From a virus, in the IMG/VR virus record IMGVR_UViG_3300024518_003528, positions 1 through 38,302 of that record: a DNA stretch of 38,302 bases. One strand, 5' to 3'. Both the position numbers and the translations under genes were made by a program. Every line of letters begins with the position of its first letter. The stretch's first letter is position 1. This document shows positions 1,247 to 38,302 of the stretch, piece by piece. The notes beneath the pieces are model-generated. The model searched no databases. It worked only from the letters and a program-made list of their open reading frames with translations, and was not told where the DNA came from.

Positions 1247-2542
1247 ATGAAACAAGATTTTAAAAAACTTCAGTCTTACGTAGACGAGATGAAAGCTACT
1301 TCAAGTGGTAACGACAAGAAAGTTATTATTGAAAAGTATTTGAAGAACGAGTTCGTTGCTAAGGCAATGATTTACGAGAACAGTCCTTTTATGCAGTTCA
1401 ATGTTACAAGTAAAAGTATATCGAAGAATCCATCACTGATGGGTCCGGATAATAATTACACAGATGTTTTCAGTTTACTAAACGACCTAAATGAACGAAA
1501 CATTACAGGTCATAGTGCTATTGCAGTAGTAAACAAGTTTTGTTTTGAAAACTTATTGTATAAAGAGTTAATCCTTAATTTAATTGACAAGGATTTAAAA
1601 ACGAGAGCAGGAGCTAGTTTAATTAACAAAGTTAAACCTGGACACGTTCCTACATTCGACGTTGCACTTGCCACTAAGTACGAACCTGAGTTCTGTGATT
1701 TTGTAAATGAAACTTGGTATGCGTCACGAAAGTTAGACGGTCTTCGTTGTATTGTTATTGTCGATGAATACGGAAAAGCCAAAGCCTATACACGTAAGGG
1801 AAAGGAATTTACAACACTTGGTAAAGTACTTGAGGACATTGAAAAAATTGGAGTTACTGATACAGTATTTGACGGTGAACTTTGTATTGTAGATAAAAAT
1901 GGAAATGAGGATTTTACATCAATACAAAAGTTATACAAGAAAAAAGACTTTACAATTTCAAATCCAAAGTATATTATTTTTGATACACTTACAATGGATG
2001 AGTTTAATAGTAAAACATCCGTTACTACACTACAAGAAAGATTGGATTACTTGGAAAGTATGATTACAGTAAATGAATACAATACAATCGATATACTTAC
2101 ACAAGAAATTGTCCGTAACGAAGACGACTTTGTTAAATGGCAAAAGAAAGCCAAAGACGGTAATTGGGAAGGTTTTATGATTCGTAAAGACGTTGAGTAC
2201 AAAGGAAAACGAAGTAAAGATTTACTGAAAGTTAAAAAGTTTCATGATGCGGAGTTTACTGTTAAGGAAACTACTTCCGATATATTCAGAACAATACAAG
2301 AAGGAAAGGAAGTTGAAGAACTTGTTATGTCCAATGTACGTATTGAATATAAAGGTCATCCGGTTGATGTTGGTAGTGGATTTAGTTTGGATGAAAGACG
2401 TAAGTTCCACAAGAATCCATCTTTGATTATTGGACAGGAAATCACAGTACAATGGTTCGAGGAAACAACAAACGACCAAGGAACGGTAAGTTTAAGATTC
2501 CCAACTTTTAAAGCCCTTTATGAGGGTGGTAGAGATTGTTAA
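1247..2542 (+). CDS. lig: ATP-dependent DNA ligase
   Basis: The enzyme seals nicks in duplex DNA during phage replication and repair, using ATP through a lysyl-AMP intermediate. Motif I is SRKLDGLRC, with the expected adenylated lysine at residue 162 (KxDG). Further nucleotidyltransferase motifs are FDGELC (about 208-213), EGFMIRKD (about 310) and the basic motif V region KDLLKVKKF (about 326-334). An OB-fold-like C-terminal part ends near WFEETTN. At 431 residues it is slightly shorter than T4 gp30 (487) and has the same order: an N-terminal DNA-binding part, the nucleotidyltransferase core, then the OB domain. It sits in the promoter-proximal early block. Confidence 0.95.
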   Translation: MKQDFKKLQSYVDEMKATSSGNDKKVIIEKYLKNEFVAKAMIYENSPFMQFNVTSKSISKNPSLMGPDNNYTDVFSLLNDLNERNITGHSAIAVVNKFCFENLLYKELILNLIDKDLKTRAGASLINKVKPGHVPTFDVALATKYEPEFCDFVNETWYASRKLDGLRCIVIVDEYGKAKAYTRKGKEFTTLGKVLEDIEKIGVTDTVFDGELCIVDKNGNEDFTSIQKLYKKKDFTISNPKYIIFDTLTMDEFNSKTSVTTLQERLDYLESMITVNEYNTIDILTQEIVRNEDDFVKWQKKAKDGNWEGFMIRKDVEYKGKRSKDLLKVKKFHDAEFTVKETTSDIFRTIQEGKEVEELVMSNVRIEYKGHPVDVGSGFSLDERRKFHKNPSLIIGQEITVQWFEETTNDQGTVSLRFPTFKALYEGGRDC

Positions 2543-5969: not shown

Positions 5970-6315
5970 TGCTTTTGAATCCTTCATAAATAATATTTTA
6001 AGAACACACGAGGGTAACAATAAATTAAGAGCATTGTCCTCAAGTGATAGTTTAAAAGATTCCGTAGATAAGTTTCTATTTGAATCACAACTCAACGCTT
6101 TTTTTATACCAGGTGAACCTGAAGACGAAGTTGTATATCAGGACACTCTAAATCGTTTGTCAAAATTACAACTTGCAATATTTAATCACAAACCTGTAAA
6201 TCAAACTGATTACGATATAATAGGAATGATTATTGTAAAATATTCTGAAAAGAATATTAGGTTATCTAAAGAAATTTTACTATATTTAAACAACTTGTAC
6301 ACACAACACAAATAA
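5953..6315 (+). CDS. Hypothetical helical protein
   Basis: This 120-residue protein is predicted largely helical and has no membrane segment. Its start lies inside the end of the preceding gene (17-nt overlap), and its stop shares one base with the next start (TAATG). This tight coupling suggests stoichiometric co-expression with its neighbours. No family was recognised. Confidence 0.65.
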   Translation: MKHRNNAFESFINNILRTHEGNNKLRALSSSDSLKDSVDKFLFESQLNAFFIPGEPEDEVVYQDTLNRLSKLQLAIFNHKPVNQTDYDIIGMIIVKYSEKNIRLSKEILLYLNNLYTQHK

Positions 6316-6530
6316 TGGGGTTTAATAAACGTTATATATCGATGAGTTCTATGTTAACACAATGGAAAACCCGTTACGATGTAAATGATGTTATTAACTA
6401 TGTTAATAAAGCAGATGTTATAATATTATTAGGCAATAGTACGATATTAAGTAAAATTATAGATATGTGTGCACAGAATGAACAGGAAGAACTAACAAAA
6501 TTATTAAAAAGTTATATTTATAAGAGATGA
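6315..6530 (+). CDS. Small hypothetical protein
   Basis: This 71-residue basic protein is probably helical (RYDVNDVINYVNKADVIILL). Coupled on both sides: a 1-nt overlap with the previous stop and a 4-nt overlap with the next start. Function unknown. Confidence 0.6.
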   Translation: MGFNKRYISMSSMLTQWKTRYDVNDVINYVNKADVIILLGNSTILSKIIDMCAQNEQEELTKLLKSYIYKR

Positions 6531-6712
6531 GAGATGAACTTCAACAATATTTAAACCAAGTACCTGATAAAATTAAAAATGATGTTAACAACATTTTACG
6601 TATAAAAGACAACGAAGAGAGGTGGAAGTTTTTACGTTATTGTTTTCTAGCGTACGCACCAGAATTAATTGATAATCAGTTTGCGTGGAACCTATATAAG
6701 GAAACGGTATGA
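6527..6712 (+). CDS. Small hypothetical protein
   Basis: This 61-residue protein begins MRDELQQYLNQVPDKI and is probably all-helical, with an aromatic C-terminal half. It overlaps both neighbours by 4 nt (ATGA-type junctions), the compact organisation of a polycistronic early unit. No family was recognised. Confidence 0.6.
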   Translation: MRDELQQYLNQVPDKIKNDVNNILRIKDNEERWKFLRYCFLAYAPELIDNQFAWNLYKETV

Positions 6713-7041
6713 TAGATGATATGTTATATCAAGAGTTTTTAAAACTAACAGATAATAAAAAAATAGATTATTTATATACTATACTTGTTGAAAAAGACTT
6801 CGATAAACTAAAGGATAAATACGGTCCTAGAGAAATATCTATTGACCTACACGACAACTATGTAATTATAAAGGCATATTCTCTAAAAGACATAAGAACT
6901 ATTCGAAACAATATGATAATGAGTGGAATGATATTAGTAGATGAAATTGTCGAAAAGAAATTACAGGAAAATAACAAACCAGCCAAACTGATAGTTTCCT
7001 ATTTGTACGAAGGAGAAGTACAACCAATATGTTTAAATTAA
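6709..7041 (+). CDS. Hypothetical protein
   Basis: This 110-residue protein has a helical N-terminal half and a beta-rich C-terminal half (ISIDLHDNYVIIKAYSLKDI, then PAKLIVSYLYEG). It overlaps the upstream gene by 4 nt. The pattern suggests a small globular alpha/beta protein. No function could be assigned. Confidence 0.65.
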   Translation: MIDDMLYQEFLKLTDNKKIDYLYTILVEKDFDKLKDKYGPREISIDLHDNYVIIKAYSLKDIRTIRNNMIMSGMILVDEIVEKKLQENNKPAKLIVSYLYEGEVQPICLN

Positions 7042-7051
7042 AAATAAAATT

Positions 7052-7225
7052 ATGAAATACAAAACACAAATATTAACTAAGATAGATTCAATAGAAAACG
7101 CATTAGATTTCGTTGTAAGAAATTTAAGTTCCCAATCTATATCAGCACAGGAAACAGTTACGACACTAAAGAATCAATTAAAACAATTACAATCCGTTAA
7201 AGACCTTACTGAAGCGGAGTTTTAA
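7052..7225 (+). CDS. Short helical hypothetical protein
   Basis: This 57-residue ORF fills the gap between the genes at 6709 and 7227. It begins MKYKTQILTKIDSIENALDF and contains a heptad-like C-terminal helix (TVTTLKNQLKQLQSVKDL), so a short coiled coil is likely. It starts 10 nt after one stop and ends one base before the start of the membrane/coiled-coil protein, which makes that protein a plausible partner. Confidence 0.6.
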   Translation: MKYKTQILTKIDSIENALDFVVRNLSSQSISAQETVTTLKNQLKQLQSVKDLTEAEF

Positions 7226-7226
7226 A

Positions 7227-8315
7227 ATGAAAACTCTTCTGAGAATATTAGTAGCAATATTTGCACTAGGACTTAGTACATCGGCAGCTTACTTTAGTGT
7301 TCTTGGATTAACAAAGATGTTTGCTGGTGCCGTGTTAGGTACTGCAATTGTTTGTTCTTTTATAGAAGGAAGTAAGTTAATTATAGCTTCCGTATTACAT
7401 CAGTTTAGTAAACAAATTAATTGGCTAATTAAAGGAGTATTAGTAATATTCCTATTTTTGTCTATGGCAATTACTTCAATGGGAGTGTACGGTTATTTAA
7501 CAAACGCATTTCAAGGCACAGCTAATCAGTTAGAACTAGTGGCAGGCCAAACTAAAGTAATAGAAATGAAACGTGGAAGGTTTCAAGAATCACTTGATGG
7601 ATACACAACAGAAAAAACACAAATTGCAAGTTCTATATCAGAACTGTCAAAGGGATTATCCAATAACGTTATTCAGTACAGAGACAGAGAAACAGGTGAA
7701 TTAATTACAACAACTAGTTCCTCTACTAGACGAGCATTAGAACGTCAACTAAATGATTCTAAGTTACAACGTGATAAAATATCAATAAAAATGGAAGCTT
7801 TAACTGATTCTATTACCAAGTTGGATATGCAAGTATTAAACTTAAACAACAATGAAGAACTAGCTAGTGAAATAGGCCCACTAAAGTTTATTACAGGACT
7901 TACAGGGTTGGATATGGATGTTATTGTTAACTTTCTTACTCTTATCTTAGTGTTTATAATTGACCCACTTGCTATTATATTGGTTGTTGTATTTAACAAG
8001 ATAGGGGATGAAGAGAAAGTAATATCTTCTGTACCTGAGGGAATGGAATTTGATAAACCATATCCAATACCTGAAGACAATGAACGACCTAAGGATTTTA
8101 TACAGTTAACACCAGACGATTTAGTTACTCAACCAAAAGAAGACTTAACACAAGAAGCTACAACGTCTAGTGCACTAAGTCGTGCTAAAAATAAATACAA
8201 GGAATGGACTCAAAAGAAAACTTCAACGGAACCTACAATAGATAAAGAATCTACACCTGAAAAAGATTTCTACGGAGAATCAAACAAAAAGAAACGTCCA
8301 AAAAGATTTGGATAA
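7227..8315 (+). CDS. Four-helix membrane protein with long coiled-coil loop
   Basis: This 362-residue protein has three N-terminal membrane segments (about residues 5-27, 31-55, 66-90), then a charged coiled-coil region (about 95-205), then a fourth segment (about 231-254, VNFLTLILVFIIDPLAIILV). The C-terminal 100 residues are hydrophilic, proline- and lysine-rich, and end in KKKRPKRFG. The topology resembles DUF4407-type membrane proteins, although a family match cannot be confirmed here. If the C-terminus is cytoplasmic, the coiled coil would lie in the periplasm. It closes the early block, just before a new promoter that overlaps its last codons. A role in membrane remodelling, exclusion or lysis control is possible. 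Confidence 0.75.
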   Translation: MKTLLRILVAIFALGLSTSAAYFSVLGLTKMFAGAVLGTAIVCSFIEGSKLIIASVLHQFSKQINWLIKGVLVIFLFLSMAITSMGVYGYLTNAFQGTANQLELVAGQTKVIEMKRGRFQESLDGYTTEKTQIASSISELSKGLSNNVIQYRDRETGELITTTSSSTRRALERQLNDSKLQRDKISIKMEALTDSITKLDMQVLNLNNNEELASEIGPLKFITGLTGLDMDVIVNFLTLILVFIIDPLAIILVVVFNKIGDEEKVISSVPEGMEFDKPYPIPEDNERPKDFIQLTPDDLVTQPKEDLTQEATTSSALSRAKNKYKEWTQKKTSTEPTIDKESTPEKDFYGESNKKKRPKRFG

Positions 8316-8338
8316 TTAAAACATTTGTTGTATATTGT
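8307..8338 (+). promoter_or_regulatory. Bacteroidetes-type promoter ahead of 8378
   Basis: TTTG at 8307-8310 and TATATTGT at 8331-8338 are separated by exactly 20 nt, and the spacer ends in TTTGTTG as at 692-715. The upstream element lies inside the last codons of the membrane protein gene. The start at 8378 follows 39 nt downstream. Confidence 0.55.
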
Positions 8339-8377
8339 ATATATAATAAATAAATATTAATCATAAAAGTAAATATT

Positions 8378-8935
8378 ATGGCTAGAATTAATCTTAAAAA
8401 AACTACACACAAAAAAACTAAAGATGTAGTTATCAAATCCGCAAAAGACGGAAACACTTATAAATCTTATGTTGAAGATTATCAACGATATATGATATGT
8501 CAAAATAGTGTTGAAACCGGAGAATACTTTAAAGGACAATTATGTGGTAATTGGACAAAAGTAGCAAACGATACAGTAAAAACATTGTGCTGGAAATGTA
8601 CAGCTCGGTTAGTCCCATTCGAAGAAAAAATTGTTAAAAAATCTGACAAACCTAGAGGTTGGGCCTTTATGAAAGAGTACGTACATAAAGACGGAACGGT
8701 TTATCATAAAGGAAAAGAACAACCAGAATTAAAAGGTACATTACCTATTACTGTTATAAAGAAAAAAGAAAAGGTTAAATTAACTAAGGGCCAAAAGGCT
8801 GAGAAACAACAGAACATTCTTAGACAAATAAATAAACTTAAAAAACAACATAAAAAAGAAACTCGTAAAACTTACGCATCAAAAATAATGTCACAAATTA
8901 AACAATTACAACGTGACCTAAAAAAGGTAAAATGA
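8378..8935 (+). CDS. Basic protein with a possible four-cysteine zinc site
   Basis: This 185-residue protein is very basic. Cysteines at 41, 56, 71 and 74 (the last two as CWKC) could bind zinc. A central segment (KEYVHKDGTVYHKGKEQPEL, about 94-113) is followed by a lysine-rich coiled-coil tail (about 125-185). The central pattern feels familiar from other large marine phages, but I know of no function. It is the first gene after the 8307-8338 promoter and overlaps the lysozyme-like gene by 4 nt. Its position and charge suggest DNA or RNA contact. Confidence 0.75.
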   Translation: MARINLKKTTHKKTKDVVIKSAKDGNTYKSYVEDYQRYMICQNSVETGEYFKGQLCGNWTKVANDTVKTLCWKCTARLVPFEEKIVKKSDKPRGWAFMKEYVHKDGTVYHKGKEQPELKGTLPITVIKKKEKVKLTKGQKAEKQQNILRQINKLKKQHKKETRKTYASKIMSQIKQLQRDLKKVK

Positions 8936-9492
8936 TGGAAAAGTTTATAACTTTCTTAATAATGACGTTTGTACTAGGTACAACGACAACCACTAATCCA
9001 GAAATAGTAACATTCGAAATAGGAGTTCCTATACTAAAAAATAAAATTGAATTAGTAGACGTAGGACCAAATACCAATGATTTTATGAAAGCTATAGCAT
9101 TTAAAGAATCACAAAACATTATTGATACTGTTAACGTATATGGTATGTTAGGTAAATATCAGTTTAGTAGGACAACATTAAATGGACTAGGATATAAAGT
9201 AGTATCAAATGCAACTTTCCTTAGTTCAGAATCATTACAAGATGAAGCAATGTTAGAACTATTAAAACACAACCAAAAGATATTACGTAAACAAATAAAA
9301 AAATATAACGGATTAATGGTAGACAGTATTTTTGTTACAGAGTCAGGTTTACTTGCAGCTGCACATTTAGCAGGACCAAGTAATGTTAAAAAATGGTTAC
9401 GAACAAACGGAAAGAAAACAAGAACAGATGGATTTGGAACAACAATAGAAGATTATATAAATAAATTTGCAAACTATAAAATAGAATTATGA
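8932..9492 (+). CDS. Exported lysozyme/transglycosylase-like protein
   Basis: This 186-residue protein begins with a hydrophobic signal-like segment (about residues 5-18, FITFLIMTFVLGTT). It then has a lytic-transglycosylase-like core: AIAFKESQN with the candidate catalytic Glu59, YGMLGKYQFS (about 70-79), TESGLLAAAHLAG (about 134-146) and a C-terminal FGTTIEDYINKF. Such enzymes cut the peptidoglycan glycan backbone. The signal segment suggests export as an endolysin, either cleaved or signal-anchored. The gp5-like spike in this window has no lysozyme domain, so this may be the main muramidase activity here. Coupled to both neighbours by 4-nt overlaps. Confidence 0.75.
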   Translation: MMEKFITFLIMTFVLGTTTTTNPEIVTFEIGVPILKNKIELVDVGPNTNDFMKAIAFKESQNIIDTVNVYGMLGKYQFSRTTLNGLGYKVVSNATFLSSESLQDEAMLELLKHNQKILRKQIKKYNGLMVDSIFVTESGLLAAAHLAGPSNVKKWLRTNGKKTRTDGFGTTIEDYINKFANYKIEL

Positions 9493-10256
9493 AAGAATTA
9501 ACACCAGAACAGTTACAAGCTAATTGGCAAGAATTCCTAGGTTACATTGAAAAATATATCACAGGTGACAGAAAAGAAAAATTATTAAAGTTTTACAAGG
9601 ATAGAAAAGACCGTTTCTTGTTTATGCCGGCATCAAGTGTAGAACATTATCACTCAGCGTTTGTCGGTGGATATGTAGAACACGTTAACAGAGTAATAAA
9701 AGCATCTATTGAAATTACTGATATGTGGACACGTTACGGTAGTCCGTTGAATTGTACAACGGAAGAAGTTGTGTTTACAGCATTGAATCATGATTTAGGT
9801 AAATACGGTTCAGACGATAATGAATACTATGTTCCTAATCCAAGTGATTGGCACAGAAAGAATCAAGGAAAGATTTATGAATACAATACTGAATTATCAA
9901 GAATGCCTGTTCCGGACAGAAGTATATTATTGTTAGTACAAAACGGTATTGAAATTTCCGAAACAGAATATATTGGAATTAAAACGCATGATGGTATGTA
10001 TGACGACGCAAACAAAGCTTATTTAGTAGGGTATGCTTGGAGTCAAAAACTTAAATCATCATTGTCTTACATTGTACACCAAGCAGATATGATGGCTGCG
10101 AGAGTAGAGTTTGAAGAATGGAGAGATAATTATAGAGACGGAGCAGGTAATAAAGTTAGTAAACCAAAAGTAGCTAAGCAAGTTTCAGGAGCGGAAAAAC
10201 CTTTATCAAATTCAGCTGCTGCTGCTTTTGACGAACTTTTTAAATCAACACAATGA
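9489..10256 (+). CDS. HD-domain phosphohydrolase-like protein
   Basis: This 255-residue protein carries an HD metal-site set. There are histidines in HYHSAFVGGYVEHV (about residues 53-66), the HD pair in NHDLGK (about 99-104), a THDG (about 166-169) and HQADMMA (about 197-203) with a late aspartate. HD enzymes hydrolyse phosphate esters of nucleotides or cyclic nucleotides through bound metal. The last 45 residues are a low-complexity tail. Possible substrates are dNMPs, ppGpp-like alarmones or cyclic defence signals, and the sequence does not discriminate. It lies between the lysozyme-like gene and the late sigma factor. Confidence 0.8.
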   Translation: MKELTPEQLQANWQEFLGYIEKYITGDRKEKLLKFYKDRKDRFLFMPASSVEHYHSAFVGGYVEHVNRVIKASIEITDMWTRYGSPLNCTTEEVVFTALNHDLGKYGSDDNEYYVPNPSDWHRKNQGKIYEYNTELSRMPVPDRSILLLVQNGIEISETEYIGIKTHDGMYDDANKAYLVGYAWSQKLKSSLSYIVHQADMMAARVEFEEWRDNYRDGAGNKVSKPKVAKQVSGAEKPLSNSAAAAFDELFKSTQ

Positions 10257-14093: not shown

Positions 14094-15983
14094 ATGGCAA
14101 ATGATATAGTAAAAAAAGACGTCAGCTACATCGGTCGCGATTTTGGAGATTTAAGAAAAAACTTAATTGATTTTTCTAAAAACTATTTCCCGAACACTTA
14201 CAACGATTTTAACGAGTCTTCTCCAGGTATGATGTTTATTGAGATGGCTGCATACGTTGGTGACGTATTAAGTTACTACACAGACCATAACCTAAAAGAA
14301 GGAATGTTAGGACAAGCAAGTGAACTTAAAAATGTTATGGCACTAGCAAGTCAAATGGGATATAAATCTAAAAACACAATAGCTTCATCAGTATTGTTAG
14401 ACGTATTCCAATTAATTCCAGCAACAGGAACAAGTCCAAACATAGTACCGGATTGGAACTATGCTATGATTGTAAATCAAGATATGATTGTTAAAGCGGA
14501 AAAAACACCAGCTGAATTTAGAACAATGGAATCAGTTGACTTTAGTTATTCAAGTAGTTTAAGTCCAACAGAAGTAACCGTTTATTCTGTTAACGAAACA
14601 ACAGGTGCACCTGAATGGTATCTACTTAAAAAACAAGTTAAAGCAACTTCGGGTAAAATTACAACAACAGATTTTACATTTGGTAGTCCAAAAATATATG
14701 ATAAAATAACTATCACTGATAATAATTTAATTGAGATTATTGATGTTGTTGATAGTGATAACAATAAATGGTATGAAGTACCTTACTTAGCACAAGACAC
14801 GATATTTGAATCTGTTAAGAACATAGCAAAAAACGACCCGGAACTTTCGGGATATAGTGATGAAGTACCTTATTTGTTAAAATTAAAGAAAACTGCAAAA
14901 CGTTTTATAGCTAACTTCAAAGACAACAACAGATTGGAATTACAATTTGGGTCGGGTATTAGTGATAACAATGATGAAGAACTTATTCCTAATCCGGATT
15001 TAGTAGGAAGTTCAATATCAGGAAATGATAGGGATATAGATTTAGGACTAGACCCTAGCAACTTTTTATATACTCGTACTTACGGACTAGCTCCGTCGGA
15101 TACAACATTAACTGTAAGATATTCAACCGGAACAGGAGTTGGGGATAATGTAGGACCAAACACATTAACTGATATTATTACATTTTCAGTAAGTTTGGAT
15201 GAAACCGGACTTCCGGCAACATTAGTTTCACAGGTTAAATCTTCAGTAGCTTGTACAAATACTCAACCAGCAAGAGGTGGTGCTAGTAAAGAACAGTTAG
15301 AAGATATACGTAATAATGCATTAGCTAATTTTGCAAGTCAAAATAGAGCAGTAACTAAAGAAGATTATATTGTACGTGCATATAGTTTGCCTCCTAAATT
15401 TGGAAGTATTGGTAAAGCATATATGGTACAGGACGATCAACTATCCGTAAGTGAAGCAGGAGAAACTAGTAGAACAGCAAATCCGTTTGCAATGAACTTG
15501 TATATGTTAGGATATAATAGTTCTGGTAAACTAACAGAATTAAACCCAGCTATAAAAGCAAACTTGAAAGAGTACTTGTCAAGTTACAGAATGTTAACTG
15601 ACGGTATTAATATAAAAGATGCTTATATAATTAACATTGGTATTGAGTTTGAAGTATCTATACAACCTAGTTCAAATGCAAACGAAGTTGTGTTAAAATG
15701 TATAAATAAACTAAAATCATTATTCGATAGTAAGAAATGGCAAATAAACCAACCAATATTATTATCAAAGATTAGAGTAGAACTTGATAGAATTGAAGGT
15801 GTACAAACAGTTAAAGACGTGAAAATAACTAATAAGTTCAACACAGCAGATGGATATTCAGGAAATATATACGACATAGACCAAGCATTAAAAGAGGGCG
15901 TAGTTTATCCTTCACTTGACCCAAGCATATTCGAAATAAAATATTTAGACAAAGACATTAAAGGCCGTACGGTAGCATTATAA
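14094..15983 (+). CDS. 6: Baseplate wedge protein, gp6-like (baseplate J superfamily)
   Basis: This 629-residue protein begins with the conserved gp6 N-terminus: YIGRDFGDLRKNLIDFSKNY, then SPGMMFIEMAAYVGDVLSYY (about residues 44-63). The central part holds the J-like core with ENIRNNAL-like helices: KEQLEDIRNNALANFASQNR, then AVTKEDYIVRAYSLPP. The C-terminal third contains YIINIGIEFEVSIQPS. gp6 dimers form the inner ring of the baseplate that triggers sheath contraction. T4 gp6 has 660 residues, so the length fits. It starts one base after gp25. Confidence 0.9.
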   Translation: MANDIVKKDVSYIGRDFGDLRKNLIDFSKNYFPNTYNDFNESSPGMMFIEMAAYVGDVLSYYTDHNLKEGMLGQASELKNVMALASQMGYKSKNTIASSVLLDVFQLIPATGTSPNIVPDWNYAMIVNQDMIVKAEKTPAEFRTMESVDFSYSSSLSPTEVTVYSVNETTGAPEWYLLKKQVKATSGKITTTDFTFGSPKIYDKITITDNNLIEIIDVVDSDNNKWYEVPYLAQDTIFESVKNIAKNDPELSGYSDEVPYLLKLKKTAKRFIANFKDNNRLELQFGSGISDNNDEELIPNPDLVGSSISGNDRDIDLGLDPSNFLYTRTYGLAPSDTTLTVRYSTGTGVGDNVGPNTLTDIITFSVSLDETGLPATLVSQVKSSVACTNTQPARGGASKEQLEDIRNNALANFASQNRAVTKEDYIVRAYSLPPKFGSIGKAYMVQDDQLSVSEAGETSRTANPFAMNLYMLGYNSSGKLTELNPAIKANLKEYLSSYRMLTDGINIKDAYIINIGIEFEVSIQPSSNANEVVLKCINKLKSLFDSKKWQINQPILLSKIRVELDRIEGVQTVKDVKITNKFNTADGYSGNIYDIDQALKEGVVYPSLDPSIFEIKYLDKDIKGRTVAL

Positions 15984-30396: not shown

Positions 30397-31197
30397 ATGA
30401 GTAAAATTAAATGTAAGATTTGTAATGAGGAAAAAGGTTCACAAGCCTTTGGTGCTCACGTTAAACGTATTCACAACGTAGAATTTAAAGATTATTTGGA
30501 ACAACATTACGACACAACACCAACAGATTTTCCGAGATACGGTAGATGTGGTGTATGTAACGTATTAACAAAAAAGAATGGTAAAACATATATTGCTTGT
30601 TGTACAGAACATTCGGGTATATTAAAAAGTGAATATTCCAAAGGACGTAAAGCTTGGAATGAAGGACTTACTAAAGATACTAATGAGTCCCTTAATAAAA
30701 TGTCACAAACACGTAAAAAACAAGGTAACTTTAAAGAAGGTTTTAAATTTACAGACGAATCAAAACAGAAAATGTCAACAACTCGGATAACTAAAGGTTT
30801 ATCAAAAGGTAAAAATAATCCTATGTTCGGTAAAACACATACACCAGAAGCAGTCCGTAAAATATTCAATCATCGGAAAATGAATAAACTTGAACAGTTA
30901 GTTGCAGACACATTAGATGCTAATAACATAGAATATTACTTTCAGTTTTTTATTACAGAAAACGATGTATGTAAATCATATGATTTTAAACTAAAAGGTC
31001 AAAACATTATTATAGAAGTCGATGGTGATTTTTGGCACGGAAATCCTAAACAAAACAATCATTGGAAAGACGTTGACAAAGTACAAGACAATGATAAACT
31101 AAAAACTAAATTAGCAGAAGACCGTGGGTTTACTTTATTAAGGTTTTGGGAATCTGACATTAAAAATAATCCAAACATCATATTAGAACATATCTAA
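30397..31197 (+). CDS. Freestanding homing endonuclease, Vsr-like nuclease with NUMOD3
   Basis: This 266-residue protein starts with a C2H2-like finger (C6, C9, H21, H26), then a second cysteine cluster (C51, C54, C68, C69). Two NUMOD3-like DNA-binding motifs follow, the clearer being GKNNPMFGKTHTPEA at 138-152. The C-terminal nuclease domain has IIIEVDGDFWHGNP (about 205-217) and FTLLRFWESDI (about 245-255), the pattern of Vsr/EDxHD homing enzymes such as I-Bth0305I. These cut a phage locus lacking the gene and spread by repair. It is inserted between two structural genes, with terminator-like sequences on both sides. M1 is required to keep the first finger. Confidence 0.85.
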   Translation: MSKIKCKICNEEKGSQAFGAHVKRIHNVEFKDYLEQHYDTTPTDFPRYGRCGVCNVLTKKNGKTYIACCTEHSGILKSEYSKGRKAWNEGLTKDTNESLNKMSQTRKKQGNFKEGFKFTDESKQKMSTTRITKGLSKGKNNPMFGKTHTPEAVRKIFNHRKMNKLEQLVADTLDANNIEYYFQFFITENDVCKSYDFKLKGQNIIIEVDGDFWHGNPKQNNHWKDVDKVQDNDKLKTKLAEDRGFTLLRFWESDIKNNPNIILEHI

Positions 31198-32946: not shown

Positions 32947-33423
32947 ATGAGTCATTGGATAATGGATGGTAAACCTTTTACAGAGGTACCAGACAAAGCA
33001 TTTGGATTTGTATATCAAATCACAAATACAAAAACAGGTAAGAAATACTTAGGTAGAAAACAATTTACATCTACCCGAAGAAAGCCGTTAACAAAAACAC
33101 AAAAGAAAGCAGGTCGTGTAAAACGAACTGTTATTAAATCAGATTCCGGATGGGGGTCGTACACAGGTAGTAACAAACCATTAAACGAAGATATTAAAAA
33201 TAAAGGTAAAGATATTTTTTTATTTGAAATATTAGTTGTATGTTATACTAGAGGTCAATTGAATTATTGTGAGGAAAATTTACAACATTTATTTCAAGTA
33301 GTGTTCGATGATACCTACTATAATGATTCTGTTGGTTCCGGAAAATGGATGACGGTTAAGTTATCTAGTGACGTGAAAAAAACACTAATAGATATTAGAA
33401 AGAAAATAGACAAATCCCTTTGA
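32947..33423 (+). CDS. GIY-YIG-like nuclease-family protein
   Basis: This 158-residue protein has a degenerate GIY-YIG core: FVYQITN at 21-27 in place of GIY and KKYLGRKQF at about 32-40 in place of YIG. A GSYTGSNKPL loop and a candidate glutamate in NYCEENLQHLF follow. The C-terminus carries YYNDSVGSGKWM. Related freestanding GIY-YIG-like proteins are frequent in T4-like phages and act as homing endonucleases or have unknown roles. There is no extra DNA-binding domain. It lies between a structural gene and an early-type island, which fits a mobile gene. Its stop codon overlaps the next promoter. Confidence 0.75.
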   Translation: MSHWIMDGKPFTEVPDKAFGFVYQITNTKTGKKYLGRKQFTSTRRKPLTKTQKKAGRVKRTVIKSDSGWGSYTGSNKPLNEDIKNKGKDIFLFEILVVCYTRGQLNYCEENLQHLFQVVFDDTYYNDSVGSGKWMTVKLSSDVKKTLIDIRKKIDKSL

Positions 33424-33454: not shown

Positions 33455-34381
33455 ATGAATGTACGAATACTCCAACTAGTAGAAACAATTATAGGACAAG
33501 GTTCTAAAAAAACTGATAGTAATTATGCATTCTATTGTCCGTTCTGTAATCACAGAAAGAAGAAACTTGAGATAAATTTAGAAACAACAGAACAAGGAGA
33601 AAACTTCTGGCATTGTTGGACTTGTGATAGTAAAGGTAAAACATTAATATCATTCTTCCGACGATTAAAGGTTGGACAGAATAAGTTTGAAAAACTTAAC
33701 AAACTGTTAGGTAATACGTTTACAACTAAAAAAGTAACCACGTACATTGACCAAGAATTACCTAAAGAATATGAACCACTATGGATACAGAAAGACCACC
33801 CGGAATGGTTAAACGCAATTAGTTATTTAATACGTGATAGAAAACTGACACGTGAAGATATCCTAAAATATAGAATAGGTTATTGTGCAAATGGGTTATA
33901 TGCACGTAAAATAATAATACCAAGTTACGACGAGAATGGGGAACTAAACTTCTTTACAGGACGTAGTTATTATGATGAAGATTACAAACACAAAAATCCA
34001 AAGTGGAGTAAAGATGTAGTTGGATTTGGATTGTTTGTAAATTGGAAATTACCGATTGTTTTATGTGAAGGTCCTATGGATGCCATAACCATAAAACGTA
34101 ATGCCATTCCATTATTTGGTAAGATTGTACTAGATAAAATAAAACTACAAATTGTAGAACAGAAAGTTAAACAAGTGTACATAGCACTAGATAGTGATGC
34201 TCTTAAAAAGGCGTTAGAAATGGTTGAATACTTTATGAACCACGGAATACAAGTTCATTTGGTAAATATGGACGATAAAGACCCAAATGAAATGGGATTT
34301 GAGAATATAACAAAATTAATTAAAAATACACCACCTATTAACTTCGCTAAACTGATGGAGTTAAAATTATTTGCATTATGA
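33455..34381 (+). CDS. DNA primase, gp61/DnaG-like
   Basis: This 308-residue protein makes RNA primers for lagging-strand synthesis with the replicative helicase. It has an N-terminal zinc ribbon (C28, C31, C54, C57; CPFC and CWTC). The TOPRIM domain carries LCEGPMDA with Glu205, IALDSDA with Asp246 and Asp248, and DKDPNEMG further on, all expected metal-binding positions. The length is close to T4 gp61 (342). It belongs to DNA replication, yet lies among structural genes with its own host-type promoter. Its stop overlaps the next start by 4 nt. Confidence 0.9.
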   Translation: MNVRILQLVETIIGQGSKKTDSNYAFYCPFCNHRKKKLEINLETTEQGENFWHCWTCDSKGKTLISFFRRLKVGQNKFEKLNKLLGNTFTTKKVTTYIDQELPKEYEPLWIQKDHPEWLNAISYLIRDRKLTREDILKYRIGYCANGLYARKIIIPSYDENGELNFFTGRSYYDEDYKHKNPKWSKDVVGFGLFVNWKLPIVLCEGPMDAITIKRNAIPLFGKIVLDKIKLQIVEQKVKQVYIALDSDALKKALEMVEYFMNHGIQVHLVNMDDKDPNEMGFENITKLIKNTPPINFAKLMELKLFAL

Positions 34382-34566
34382 CATATACAGTTAGTACATT
34401 AAATATTGGTAGAATTAAACGAATAAAAAGATTACGACATCAAGTTCATATAGATTTATCTTTATGGGCACATTCTGTTACAACACTATATAAAAAGTTT
34501 CCAATAATAGGATGGATACCATTTAAAACAACAAATCATTTTCACGAAAACGACCCAACAAAATAA
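34378..34566 (+). CDS. Small basic hypothetical protein
   Basis: This 62-residue protein begins MTYTVSTLNIGRIKRIKRLR, is basic, and is rich in tryptophan and phenylalanine near FPIIGWIPFKTTNHF. It is coupled to primase by a 4-nt overlap and ends two bases before the SbcDC-like gene. It may be a small partner of one of them, or unrelated. No family was recognised. Confidence 0.6.
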   Translation: MTYTVSTLNIGRIKRIKRLRHQVHIDLSLWAHSVTTLYKKFPIIGWIPFKTTNHFHENDPTK

Positions 34567-34568
34567 TT

Positions 34569-37500
34569 ATGAAAATAGACATAGGAATTGACAAAATCGA
34601 CCGAGTGTTCCACCTTGCCGATATCCACATAAGAACTTTAAGACGACACAAAGAATACAGACAAGTATTTGAACGTACATATGATTCTATACGTAAACAA
34701 TTAACACCTAATTCAGTGATATATGTTGCTGGAGATTTAGTACATTCTAAATTAGACTTGAGTCCTGAATGTGTTAATATGTTACAAGACTTTTTACGTA
34801 GTTTAGCTGATATATGTCCTACACTTGTTATTGCAGGTAATCATGATTGTAACTTAAATAATACAAGTCGTTTGGATAGTATTACACCTACAATAAATGG
34901 GTTAAATCATAAAAACTTACATTATTTAAAAGATAGTGGAATATATGATATAGCAGGAATTGATTGGGTATTAATGTCTGTTTGGGACTTACCTGAAGAC
35001 TTTATTACATCCGATAAATGTACACAAGATTTCAAAATAGCACTACATCACGGAGCAGTACATAAATCTCAAAACGACATTGGTTATGTAATTACAAACG
35101 AACACGTAACCATTGATAGATTCAAAGGATATGATTTAACATTGTTAGGTGATATTCATAAGAGGCAGTTTTTAGACGAAGGTAAAATCATTCATTATGC
35201 TGGGTCATTAATACAACAAAATCACGGCGAGATATTATCACACGGATATACAGTTTGGAATTTGCCTAGTAAAAAATCTACGTATGTTGAAGTACCTAAT
35301 GATTACGGATATGTTACAATTAATGTAAACAACGGAAAAATAACAGAAACAACAACTATACCACCTAAACCACGTATTCGACTAAAAATTGAAGATACAA
35401 ACGCATCTGATATTAAGAAATTATTATCAATTGTAAAACAGAAATATAAAGTACAAGATGTTTCATTACAACGTATTAATTCAATAAGTTCCGATGAAGG
35501 AGAAGATAAAATTCAGTTAGGGGATATACGAGATACCGAATATCAAAATACACTAATAACTCAATACATTGATAATAAATATCCGGGTACATCAGACGTA
35601 ATATTGGACCATATTAGACACATTAATAGAACCACAAACAGTAAAATTTCACAATCCGAATCTGCTAAAAATATTACGTGGAAACCTAAACTATTTGAAT
35701 TTGAGAATATGTTTAGTTACGGAGAAAACAATAAAGTTGATTTTAGTAATATGCAAGGAACGTATGGACTATTTGCTCCTAACGCTGCGGGTAAATCCGC
35801 TATGTTGGATGCATTAACATATTGTATATTTGACAAGTGTTCACGTAGCACTAAAGGAACCCACGTAATAAATAATAAAAAGTCAGGATACAAATGTAAA
35901 TTTAATTTTGAAATAAAAGGAATTGATTATTTTATAGAACGAGTTGCTAGTAAATCTAAAAATGGAACCGTTAAAGTAATTGTCGATTTTTGGAGAATAA
36001 TAGACGGGCAACGTGAATCGTTGAACGGAGAAGCACGTGATGATACCAACAAAGAAATTCGTAAGTTCTTGGGACAGTACGATGACTTTATATTAACGGC
36101 GTTATCACTCCAAAACAACAATACAGGGTTTATTGATATGAAACAAAGTAGTAGAAAAGATCTACTAAGTAAGTTTCTAGACATTGGAGTATTTGAAGAT
36201 TTATATCAAATAGCTAATGCTGAAATACGTGAAGTTGCAGTACTACTTAAAAAACTAAAGAAAGAAGATTTCAGTACCAAGTTGGCTGAAAATGAAACGG
36301 ATTACAAAACATCTACAAGTGAATTAAAGGTACTTGAAAAGGAAATGCTTAATAAAAACCGTTTCATTGAAACCGTAACCGATGAACATAATAATTTACT
36401 AAAAAGGTTTATTACTCTAACTACAACAGCAACTGACATTGACCAATTAGAGAAAGATATGGCCGTTTTATTGGAAGCTGAAAGTTTATTAACAGATGAG
36501 GGTAAAAGACTGCGTAATGAATTAGAATTGATTAAATCAGAACTTGACCAATTTAAAGAAGCATTACCAACACAAGAACAACAAACTGAAATTAGGACAA
36601 ATTATTCAAAAGTAATACATTGTGACGATTGTATTAAAGACTTACAAGAAGAAATTGATAAACTTGATATTACGATACAACACAACGAAAGTAAGTTAGA
36701 GAAACTTGAAGAACACGAGTATGATCCAAACTGTGAATATTGTGTAAATAACGTTTTTGTACAAGATGCTAAGGATACAGAAGGCGACTTGGTAGTTGAT
36801 AAAGAATCATTGGCTACTTTATATAACCAACAAGAAAAGTTCATTGAGCAAAAAAATAACTTACCTTACGCTGTTACACAATTTGACGGATTAACTGAAT
36901 TAATTGGACTTATTACAAGTAAAGAAACTGAACTAAATAGTACGGAACAAACATTAACATTATTAGTTTCTAAATTAGACAACGTAATAAAAGACGTTAC
37001 AACCAACAAACGTGAACAACAAGAATATAGAGATAATGAGGAAGCTATAAAACATAATGAAAAGTTTCAAGGGATTGTTGACCAAAAGAAACAATTGATG
37101 GAAAATGTGAAAACGGAACGTGCAACACTTAATGGTAGTATAATATCGAAGTCCGGTGAGGTAAAGATTTATGAAAAAACTAAACAAGATATAGTCGACA
37201 AGCTTGAGGAGTTATCACAATTAGAAACACAATACGAAGCATACGAAATATACCTAAAATCGATAAAACGTGATGGCGTACCTTATACATTAATGTCAAC
37301 TGCGTTACCACGTATTGAACAAGAAGTAAATAACATATTAACACAATTAACTGATTTTACTGTTATGTTTCAAACAGATGGTAAAAACATTAATGCTTAC
37401 ATTGTGTACGATGAAAACAACTTTTGGCTACTAGAACTTACAAGTGGAATGGAAAAGTTTATATCAAGTTTAGCTATTAGACACGCATTAACATCAGTTA

Positions 37501-37715
37501 GTAATCTACCACGTCCAAACTTTCTAGCAATAGACGAAGGCTTGGGAAACTTAGATTCTACAATGCTAAACCAAATGTTTTTGATGTTGGATTATTTAAA
37601 GTCACAGTATGAATTTCTTATAATGATCAGTCATATTGATGCAACACGTGATATGGTCGATCACCAAATAAATATTCATAAAGCAAATGGATTTTCTAAC
37701 ATTTCTTATTCTTAA
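34569..37715 (+). CDS. Fused Mre11/SbcD nuclease and Rad50/SbcC ATPase
   Basis: One continuous 1048-residue frame joins two partners that are separate in T4 (gp47 and gp46). The N-terminal metallophosphoesterase has HLADIHIR (D18, H20), AGDLVH (D56), GNHD (90-93), HHGAVH (about 159-164) and LGDIH (about 193-197). The ATPase follows from about 370: Walker A APNAAGKS (403-410), long coiled coils, a hook CEYC (722-725), signature SGMEKF (959-964) and Walker B LAIDEG (D989, E990). A second CxxC, CDDC (685-688), lies 34 residues before the hook. The complex processes DNA ends for recombination-dependent replication and can degrade host DNA. Walker A starts with Ala, not Gly. Confidence 0.9.
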   Translation: MKIDIGIDKIDRVFHLADIHIRTLRRHKEYRQVFERTYDSIRKQLTPNSVIYVAGDLVHSKLDLSPECVNMLQDFLRSLADICPTLVIAGNHDCNLNNTSRLDSITPTINGLNHKNLHYLKDSGIYDIAGIDWVLMSVWDLPEDFITSDKCTQDFKIALHHGAVHKSQNDIGYVITNEHVTIDRFKGYDLTLLGDIHKRQFLDEGKIIHYAGSLIQQNHGEILSHGYTVWNLPSKKSTYVEVPNDYGYVTINVNNGKITETTTIPPKPRIRLKIEDTNASDIKKLLSIVKQKYKVQDVSLQRINSISSDEGEDKIQLGDIRDTEYQNTLITQYIDNKYPGTSDVILDHIRHINRTTNSKISQSESAKNITWKPKLFEFENMFSYGENNKVDFSNMQGTYGLFAPNAAGKSAMLDALTYCIFDKCSRSTKGTHVINNKKSGYKCKFNFEIKGIDYFIERVASKSKNGTVKVIVDFWRIIDGQRESLNGEARDDTNKEIRKFLGQYDDFILTALSLQNNNTGFIDMKQSSRKDLLSKFLDIGVFEDLYQIANAEIREVAVLLKKLKKEDFSTKLAENETDYKTSTSELKVLEKEMLNKNRFIETVTDEHNNLLKRFITLTTTATDIDQLEKDMAVLLEAESLLTDEGKRLRNELELIKSELDQFKEALPTQEQQTEIRTNYSKVIHCDDCIKDLQEEIDKLDITIQHNESKLEKLEEHEYDPNCEYCVNNVFVQDAKDTEGDLVVDKESLATLYNQQEKFIEQKNNLPYAVTQFDGLTELIGLITSKETELNSTEQTLTLLVSKLDNVIKDVTTNKREQQEYRDNEEAIKHNEKFQGIVDQKKQLMENVKTERATLNGSIISKSGEVKIYEKTKQDIVDKLEELSQLETQYEAYEIYLKSIKRDGVPYTLMSTALPRIEQEVNNILTQLTDFTVMFQTDGKNINAYIVYDENNFWLLELTSGMEKFISSLAIRHALTSVSNLPRPNFLAIDEGLGNLDSTMLNQMFLMLDYLKSQYEFLIMISHIDATRDMVDHQINIHKANGFSNISYS

Positions 37716-37747: not shown

Positions 37748-38302
37748 ATGATTCACAAAATAAGAAAGTTTGATGGCTTAAACGAATTACCCGTTTTAAT
37801 TGAAGACGAAACAACGTTATCACCAGATTACTTTGATGTTACATATTTACCAAAAACATTACACGCAGGTAAAAATCTAGTTCGTTTAAAAGCAAACGAT
37901 GAAACTTTAAAAATTGGCAGTGCGTTGTTAATTGAGATACTAGATTTCAATGGTGACCCTATATATTACGAAGTTGCTGATTATCTGTATGAAGATAATT
38001 CACGTATAATTGCATTGTGGATTTACGAGGATACTCCTCCGGGTGAAGCTATCCTTACTATTATGGGTGAAGTGGATGAGTTTGAAGGAAACCCGATTCC
38101 AGACGAATACAAAAATTTACCAAATGTTAGATGGAAAGGTTACTTTACAGTAGACAATACAAAACGAAACGATTCTGAAATTATTTTTACTGACAGTAAT
38201 AAACCTGTACTAACATTAGAAGAAAAGATAAGACCTTATTTAGACAGGAGTTATGAAACAACTCAATTTGTTACACAATCTACAGGAACAATTGATTATG
38301 AA
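37748..38302 (+). CDS. Structural protein, 3'-truncated by the window edge
   Basis: The first 185 residues are visible and no stop occurs before the end of the window. It starts MIHKIRKFDGLNELPVLIED, then has beta-rich segments: HAGKNLVRLKANDETLKIGS, IEILDFNGDPIYYEVADY and ALWIYEDTPPGEAILTIMG (about residues 97-115). This pattern resembles structural proteins next to tail-fibre genes of large marine phages, where the beta units look like a fibronectin- or Ig-type fold. It follows the TATTTAT inverted repeat and continues the late structural block after the replication island. Function unassigned. Confidence 0.75.
   Translation, partial: MIHKIRKFDGLNELPVLIEDETTLSPDYFDVTYLPKTLHAGKNLVRLKANDETLKIGSALLIEILDFNGDPIYYEVADYLYEDNSRIIALWIYEDTPPGEAILTIMGEVDEFEGNPIPDEYKNLPNVRWKGYFTVDNTKRNDSEIIFTDSNKPVLTLEEKIRPYLDRSYETTQFVTQSTGTIDYE

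Follow-up and report, generated by a model that had tools for sequence, protein, structure and literature searches.

The window, a stretch of 38,302 bases taken from an IMG/VR virus record, most probably comes from a large tailed phage with Microcystis phage Mel-JY01 as a relative, and encodes a single-chain Mre11-Rad50 nuclease-ATPase, of the same kind as the giant-virus protein R555, that has a role at phage DNA ends (probability roughly 0.88). The single-chain fusion itself is no discovery, having been known since 2011, when thirteen Mre11/Rad50 single-chain proteins were described from Mimivirus (R555), Bacillus phage 0305phi8-36, plasmids, bacteria and eukaryotes (Yoshida, Claverie and Ogata 2011; PMC3175470). 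In the lineage of the window phage, the fusion is the regular form of the protein, observed in Mel-JY01, in hundreds of IMG/VR contigs and in nearly every relative examined. This lineage is a widespread group of aquatic phages. The parts of the fusion and the features around it are given in Table 1.

Table 1. Positions in the window of the fusion gene, its predicted parts and other features.
Feature	Position	Strand	Basis or remark
ATP-dependent DNA ligase	1247-2542		
Metal-dependent phosphohydrolase-like protein	9489-10256		
Baseplate wedge protein	14094-15983		Farther upstream of the fusion
Probable free-standing homing endonuclease, HNH type	30397-31197		Near the fusion
Probable free-standing homing endonuclease, GIY-YIG type	32947-33423		Near the fusion
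DnaG-type primase, zinc ribbon and TOPRIM	33455-34381	+	Upstream of the fusion
62-aa ORF	34378-34566		Between primase and fusion
Mre11-Rad50 (SbcD-SbcC) single-chain fusion gene	34569-37715	+	ATG start, 1048 aa, no internal stop
Mre11/SbcD phosphoesterase (nuclease) domain, about residues 12-230	34602-35258	+	PF00149, motif conservation, SbcD fold match
Mre11 capping domain, about residues 231-302	35259-35474	+	AlphaFold2 model, 7dog_A match
Predicted helix-loop-helix, residues 323-358	35535-35642	+	Model helices 323-337 and 343-358
Tether between halves, residues 359-370	35643-35678	+	Alignment of relatives
Rad50 N-terminal ATPase lobe, residues 371-560, Walker A 403-410 (APNAAGKS)	35679-36248	+	Pfam, conservation, fold match
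Coiled-coil arms, residues 561-900, zinc hook C722-E-Y-C725 (about 36732-36743)	36249-37268	+	Model, conserved cysteines
Rad50 C-terminal ATPase lobe, residues 901-1048, SGMEKF 959-964, D989-E990, H1022	37269-37712	+	Conservation, fold match
Start of large downstream protein, probably structural	37748-38302	+	Runs past the window end

Both halves of the protein were recognised in profile searches. Pfam placed PF00149 (Metallophos, calcineurin-like phosphoesterase) at residues 12-198 of the 1048-aa fusion (E 4.8e-10), and the SMC_N (E 1.7e-6) and AAA_23 (E 1.3e-5) matches, both slightly under their curated cut-offs, were split over residues 378-1039. The PHROG profile match was to an SbcC-like subunit (E 2.8e-47), while NCBIfam returned SbcC, Rad50 and SbcD, all sub-threshold. 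Residue conservation was then read from an alignment of 84 sequences, comprising the window protein and 83 homologues: 80 from IMG/VR and the proteins of Mel-JY01, of IMG/VR locus L002 and of a 735-kb phage. In the nuclease half, the five phosphoesterase motifs with their metal ligands were all present: DxH (18-20), GDLVH (55-59), GNHD (90-93), HHG (160-162) and GDIH (194-197). D18, H20, D56, G90-N91-H92, H161 and G194-D195-I196-H197 were invariant, and D93 was kept in 83/84 sequences. H59, the histidine of the GDxxH in motif II, was found in 83/84 sequences; D195, which stands at the position of the P. furiosus His206 ligand, was found in 84/84. The same two substitutions are known from R555, in which motif II has His where the third Asp would stand and P. 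furiosus His206 is replaced by Asp; its residues were taken from the published description (PMC3175470).

The Rad50 half was equally well conserved, with N405, G408-K409, S959-G960-M961-E962, D989-E990 and H1022 invariant in the alignment. The coiled coil bears at its tip a CxxC zinc hook (C722-x-x-C725), absent from the original prediction for this locus, and both cysteines of the hook were present in 84/84 sequences. The original prediction had singled out the alanine that replaces the first glycine of Walker A. This residue (A403) is indeed present, yet it is no peculiarity of the window protein, since Ala occupies the position in 82/84 sequences. The signature reads SGME, not SGGE, in 84/84. 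Given these counts, both the Walker A alanine and SGME are traits of the lineage, and because of these two departures the ATPase kinetics may differ. We also considered the alanine as the mark of a dead ATPase; this is unsupported, since the alanine occurs in nearly all relatives and the remaining ATPase residues do not vary.

An AlphaFold2 model of the fusion, built with 59 aligned sequences, had a mean pLDDT of 83.8 and a pTM of 0.46, so that the placement of the two halves, and whether the tether runs within or between chains, is not fixed by the model. In it, the nuclease and its capping domain reach to about residue 302 and are followed by a helix pair, the tether and the Rad50 head with its two helical arms, each roughly 150-175 residues long; the stretch 304-315 was poorly predicted. 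In the PDB, residues 10-302 of the model matched the nuclease and capping domains of S. aureus SbcD (7dog_A; Z 25.5, rmsd 2.9 over 271 residues), and residues 371-1048 matched the E. coli SbcC head (7yzo_D; Z 30.7, rmsd 3.3 over 349 residues). The E. coli SbcD chain 4lu9_C was also matched (Z 24.1). Among predicted viral structures, the top matches were full-length giant-virus fusion proteins (Tupanvirus, 26% identity, E 4e-78; Harvfovirus, Catovirus and others), and the fusions of phages pT24 and PTm1 were likewise found. The helix pair occupies, in the model, the position of Mre11's Rad50-binding element, and would presumably bind Rad50. From this predicted helix-loop-helix to the first Rad50 strand, the segment was 12 residues long in 83/84 sequences and 11 in the remaining one. 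This length fits the Thermotoga complex, where the Mre11 C-terminus and the Rad50 N-terminus are about 28 Angstrom apart, a distance spanned by 9-12 residues (PMC3175470). The domain assignment of the original prediction, with Mre11 tethered to Rad50 in a 1:1 ratio, was thus supported by motifs, profiles, predicted structure and fold matches, and the phosphoesterase and ABC motifs that it listed stand at the residues it gave and are conserved over the 84 aligned sequences.

The genomic position of the fusion was nearly constant. The primase lay upstream in 74 of the 75 loci with room for it, with a gap that was usually 0-9 nt, and the downstream neighbour was identical in type in 71/72 loci with room. 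This primase is homologous to the Herelleviridae primase, near which split sbcD and sbcC genes lie. Because the window also contains a DNA ligase, a phosphohydrolase-like protein and a baseplate wedge protein, its source is likely a large contractile-tailed phage; in Mel-JY01, the matching upstream region encodes a tail lysozyme. The 62-aa ORF between the primase and the fusion was seen in the window alone. It was not found in relatives, and no homology was detected between it and the small ORF at the equivalent place in Mel-JY01.

The same data bear on two other functions that could be proposed for the protein. In the first, the phage would carry it for defence against competitors, as a Lamassu-like or other protein in which a Rad50-like sensor is fused to a nuclease. 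A match to the PADLOC LmuB model (E 3.9e-23) was obtained for the Rad50 half, and Lamassu structures were among the Foldseek matches. However, the best fold matches were SbcC/Rad50 heads, the nuclease is an SbcD-type phosphoesterase with a capping domain and a predicted helix-loop-helix, and the gene occupies a fixed site beside the primase in nearly all relatives, unlike variable defence cargo. When the locus was compared with the Lamassu arrangement of LmuB with an adjacent LmuA effector (and LmuC), the Rad50 half fitted LmuB, and the neighbours were the primase and the probable structural gene. The LmuB match is explained by shared Rad50 ancestry, and we consider a defence function improbable. 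A slightly poorer candidate still is a virion structural or packaging-related ATPase for which the nuclease half serves as a mere scaffold. Such a protein would suit the baseplate wedge protein among the upstream genes and the structural appearance of the downstream neighbour, but the residues of the nuclease metal site are all invariant in the 84 sequences, and the immediate upstream partner is the primase. A single-chain Mre11-Rad50 nuclease-ATPase remains the preferred reading.

The original prediction rested on one unbroken frame, and this was borne out: the window gene has no stop over its 1048 codons, and a single frame without a stop was found in all 83 of the 83 extracted homologues. 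The IMG/VR homologues came from a search with a four-sequence alignment, which returned at least 586 relatives; the best 80 of these were fetched, and their matches to the fusion were near-full-length. A further 56 contigs, obtained in a search from another member, also carried the fusion in a single frame, a few of them truncated by the contig end. Among the relatives, one interrupted copy was seen, in the 484-kb uncultured phage LR756508. Between the window and a 67% relative, codons 300-420 differed at 29, 18 and 51 sites at codon positions 1, 2 and 3, respectively. Since this third-position-biased change, as expected of translated sequence under constraint, runs across the junction, the linker is translated in the frame of the fusion. 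An assembly or sequencing artefact that joined two adjacent genes, or that conceals a stop between residues 330 and 370, as the original prediction had warned, is hardly credible even for a metagenomic contig, and even though T4 and such phages have two genes, because 139 independent relatives, cultured Mel-JY01 among them, have the fusion in one frame, the codon-position bias crosses the junction and the tether length is constant; a hidden stop or a chimeric assembly is thus ruled out in practice. The other circumstance that the original prediction had named as fatal to its novelty, a fusion shared by the whole family, is what the data revealed. The fusion is near-universal in the lineage and, as described below, present in other phages, and one phage was already among the cases of 2011 (PMC3175470).

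The one-chain homologues that the original prediction had proposed to look for in phages fell into two clades. Clade A consists of the window protein, the IMG/VR relatives and cultured Mel-JY01, whose protein (WWT39521.1) is annotated as one CDS and has about 40% identity to that of the window. Members of this clade share with the window 40-67% identity over the full length, the motifs, the upstream primase and the downstream protein. Clade B holds the fusions of the 735-kb phage LR756501, Tenacibaculum phages pT24, PTm1 and PTm5, Sphingomonas phage PAU (gp288) and Chryseobacterium phages MA9V-1 and MA9V-2; the pT24 fusion is PHROG 35725. These are likewise one chain with an equal domain order, but they are 1202-1326 aa long, with a longer coiled coil and different neighbours. 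In pT24, PAU, MA9V-1 and PTm1, motif I of Mre11 reads DxQ, with Gln in place of His, and this substitution may change the metal site. In trees with the split pairs of T4, S-SSM7, two Herelleviridae, a Moorella phage, a T5-like Vibrio phage and E. coli, clades A and B formed one fused clade apart from the split pairs, with an ultrafast bootstrap of 100 in both the concatenation and the Rad50 tree; the Mre11-only tree gave the joint clade a weak 77. Support was 94 for the window group (clade A) and 99 for clade B. The simplest reading of these trees, given their thin sampling of split pairs, is that a single fusion event took place in the common ancestor of clades A and B.

Three further candidates for a one-chain protein were rejected: the matches in phage G (gp375) and in the Moorella phage are Rad50-only genes, and the Listeria 'phage' LM 4-11-1 has two separate genes. 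A collection of cellular genomes gave matches in only eight contigs, all of them from metagenome-assembled genomes and none from an isolate, which is in keeping with a viral gene. A collection of plasmids gave partial Rad50 matches only. Outside preprints and most subscription journals, a literature search found no paper on Mel-JY01.

Compared with the split systems, the window protein combines familiar activities in a different arrangement. T4 gp47/gp46 and Herelleviridae SbcD/SbcC have the equivalent two activities and a zinc hook, and in Herelleviridae a homologous primase lies nearby; these phages, in contrast, have two genes and no fusion, an SEGE signature, and GHxH in place of GDIH. E. 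coli SbcD/SbcC shares the domain folds and the motif set, but it too is encoded by two genes, its coiled coil is much longer, and its identity in structural alignments is about 16-22%. The R555 group is closer in architecture, with an N-terminal Mre11 and a C-terminal Rad50 in one continuous frame, and differs in that R555 is a protein of 1351 aa from a giant virus, whereas that of the window is 1048 aa and lies in a phage genome.

In the report of 2011, aquatic viral fractions were found to be rich in R555-like sequences, and a partial phage origin was argued because primases resembling those of SPO1-type phages were present on the scaffolds (PMC3175470). The window fusion likewise has a primase neighbour. 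A phage source of R555-like fusions was the point left open at that time; full-length genes of this kind are now available from contigs of phages and from one phage in culture, and the primase that stands beside them in nearly every case provides the group with a phage genomic home. A more speculative extension, which we hold to be possible though less likely than not, is that phages of this lineage are the reservoir of the giant-virus R555-type fusion, or the reverse, with one ancient viral fusion event underlying clade A, clade B and the giant-virus proteins. The pair of primase and fusion might then constitute a transferable cassette for DNA-end processing.

Herein, we describe how the window protein may act. 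Two chains would probably assemble, as a homodimer, into the usual M2R2 machine. The Mre11 parts would dimerise, the Rad50 heads would engage on ATP, and the zinc hooks would link the tips of the coiled coils. The machine would then recognise phage DNA ends, hairpins and branched replication intermediates, and nick or resect them with its predicted nuclease and ATPase activities. The product would be 3' single strands for recombination-dependent replication, like that of T4 gp47/gp46, whose resection role in this process is established. Since its Mre11 and Rad50 are tethered by nature in a 1:1 ratio, and its coiled coil is short and bears a zinc hook, the protein also lends itself well to structural studies of this enzyme.

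Several mobile elements were observed in or near the fusion genes. For the two probable homing endonucleases of the window, homologues were found in only 1-2 of the 83 relatives. The fusion of L002 (locus positions 5989-10161) contains an in-frame intein of about 338 aa, with a match to the N-terminal splicing region TIGR01445 (E 4.2e-6), located exactly between GNHD and the next Cys in the Mre11 active site. In LR756508, an ORF for an HNH/TnsA-like endonuclease (locus positions 8692-9609) splits the fusion between GDIHKRQ and GSLIQQN. An Rfam scan of this insertion gave no intron match up to E 1. A group I intron was therefore not assigned, as no known class was recognised, and the element may be either an intron or a disruptive insertion. 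The intein and the LR756508 insertion are both located at conserved nuclease motifs.
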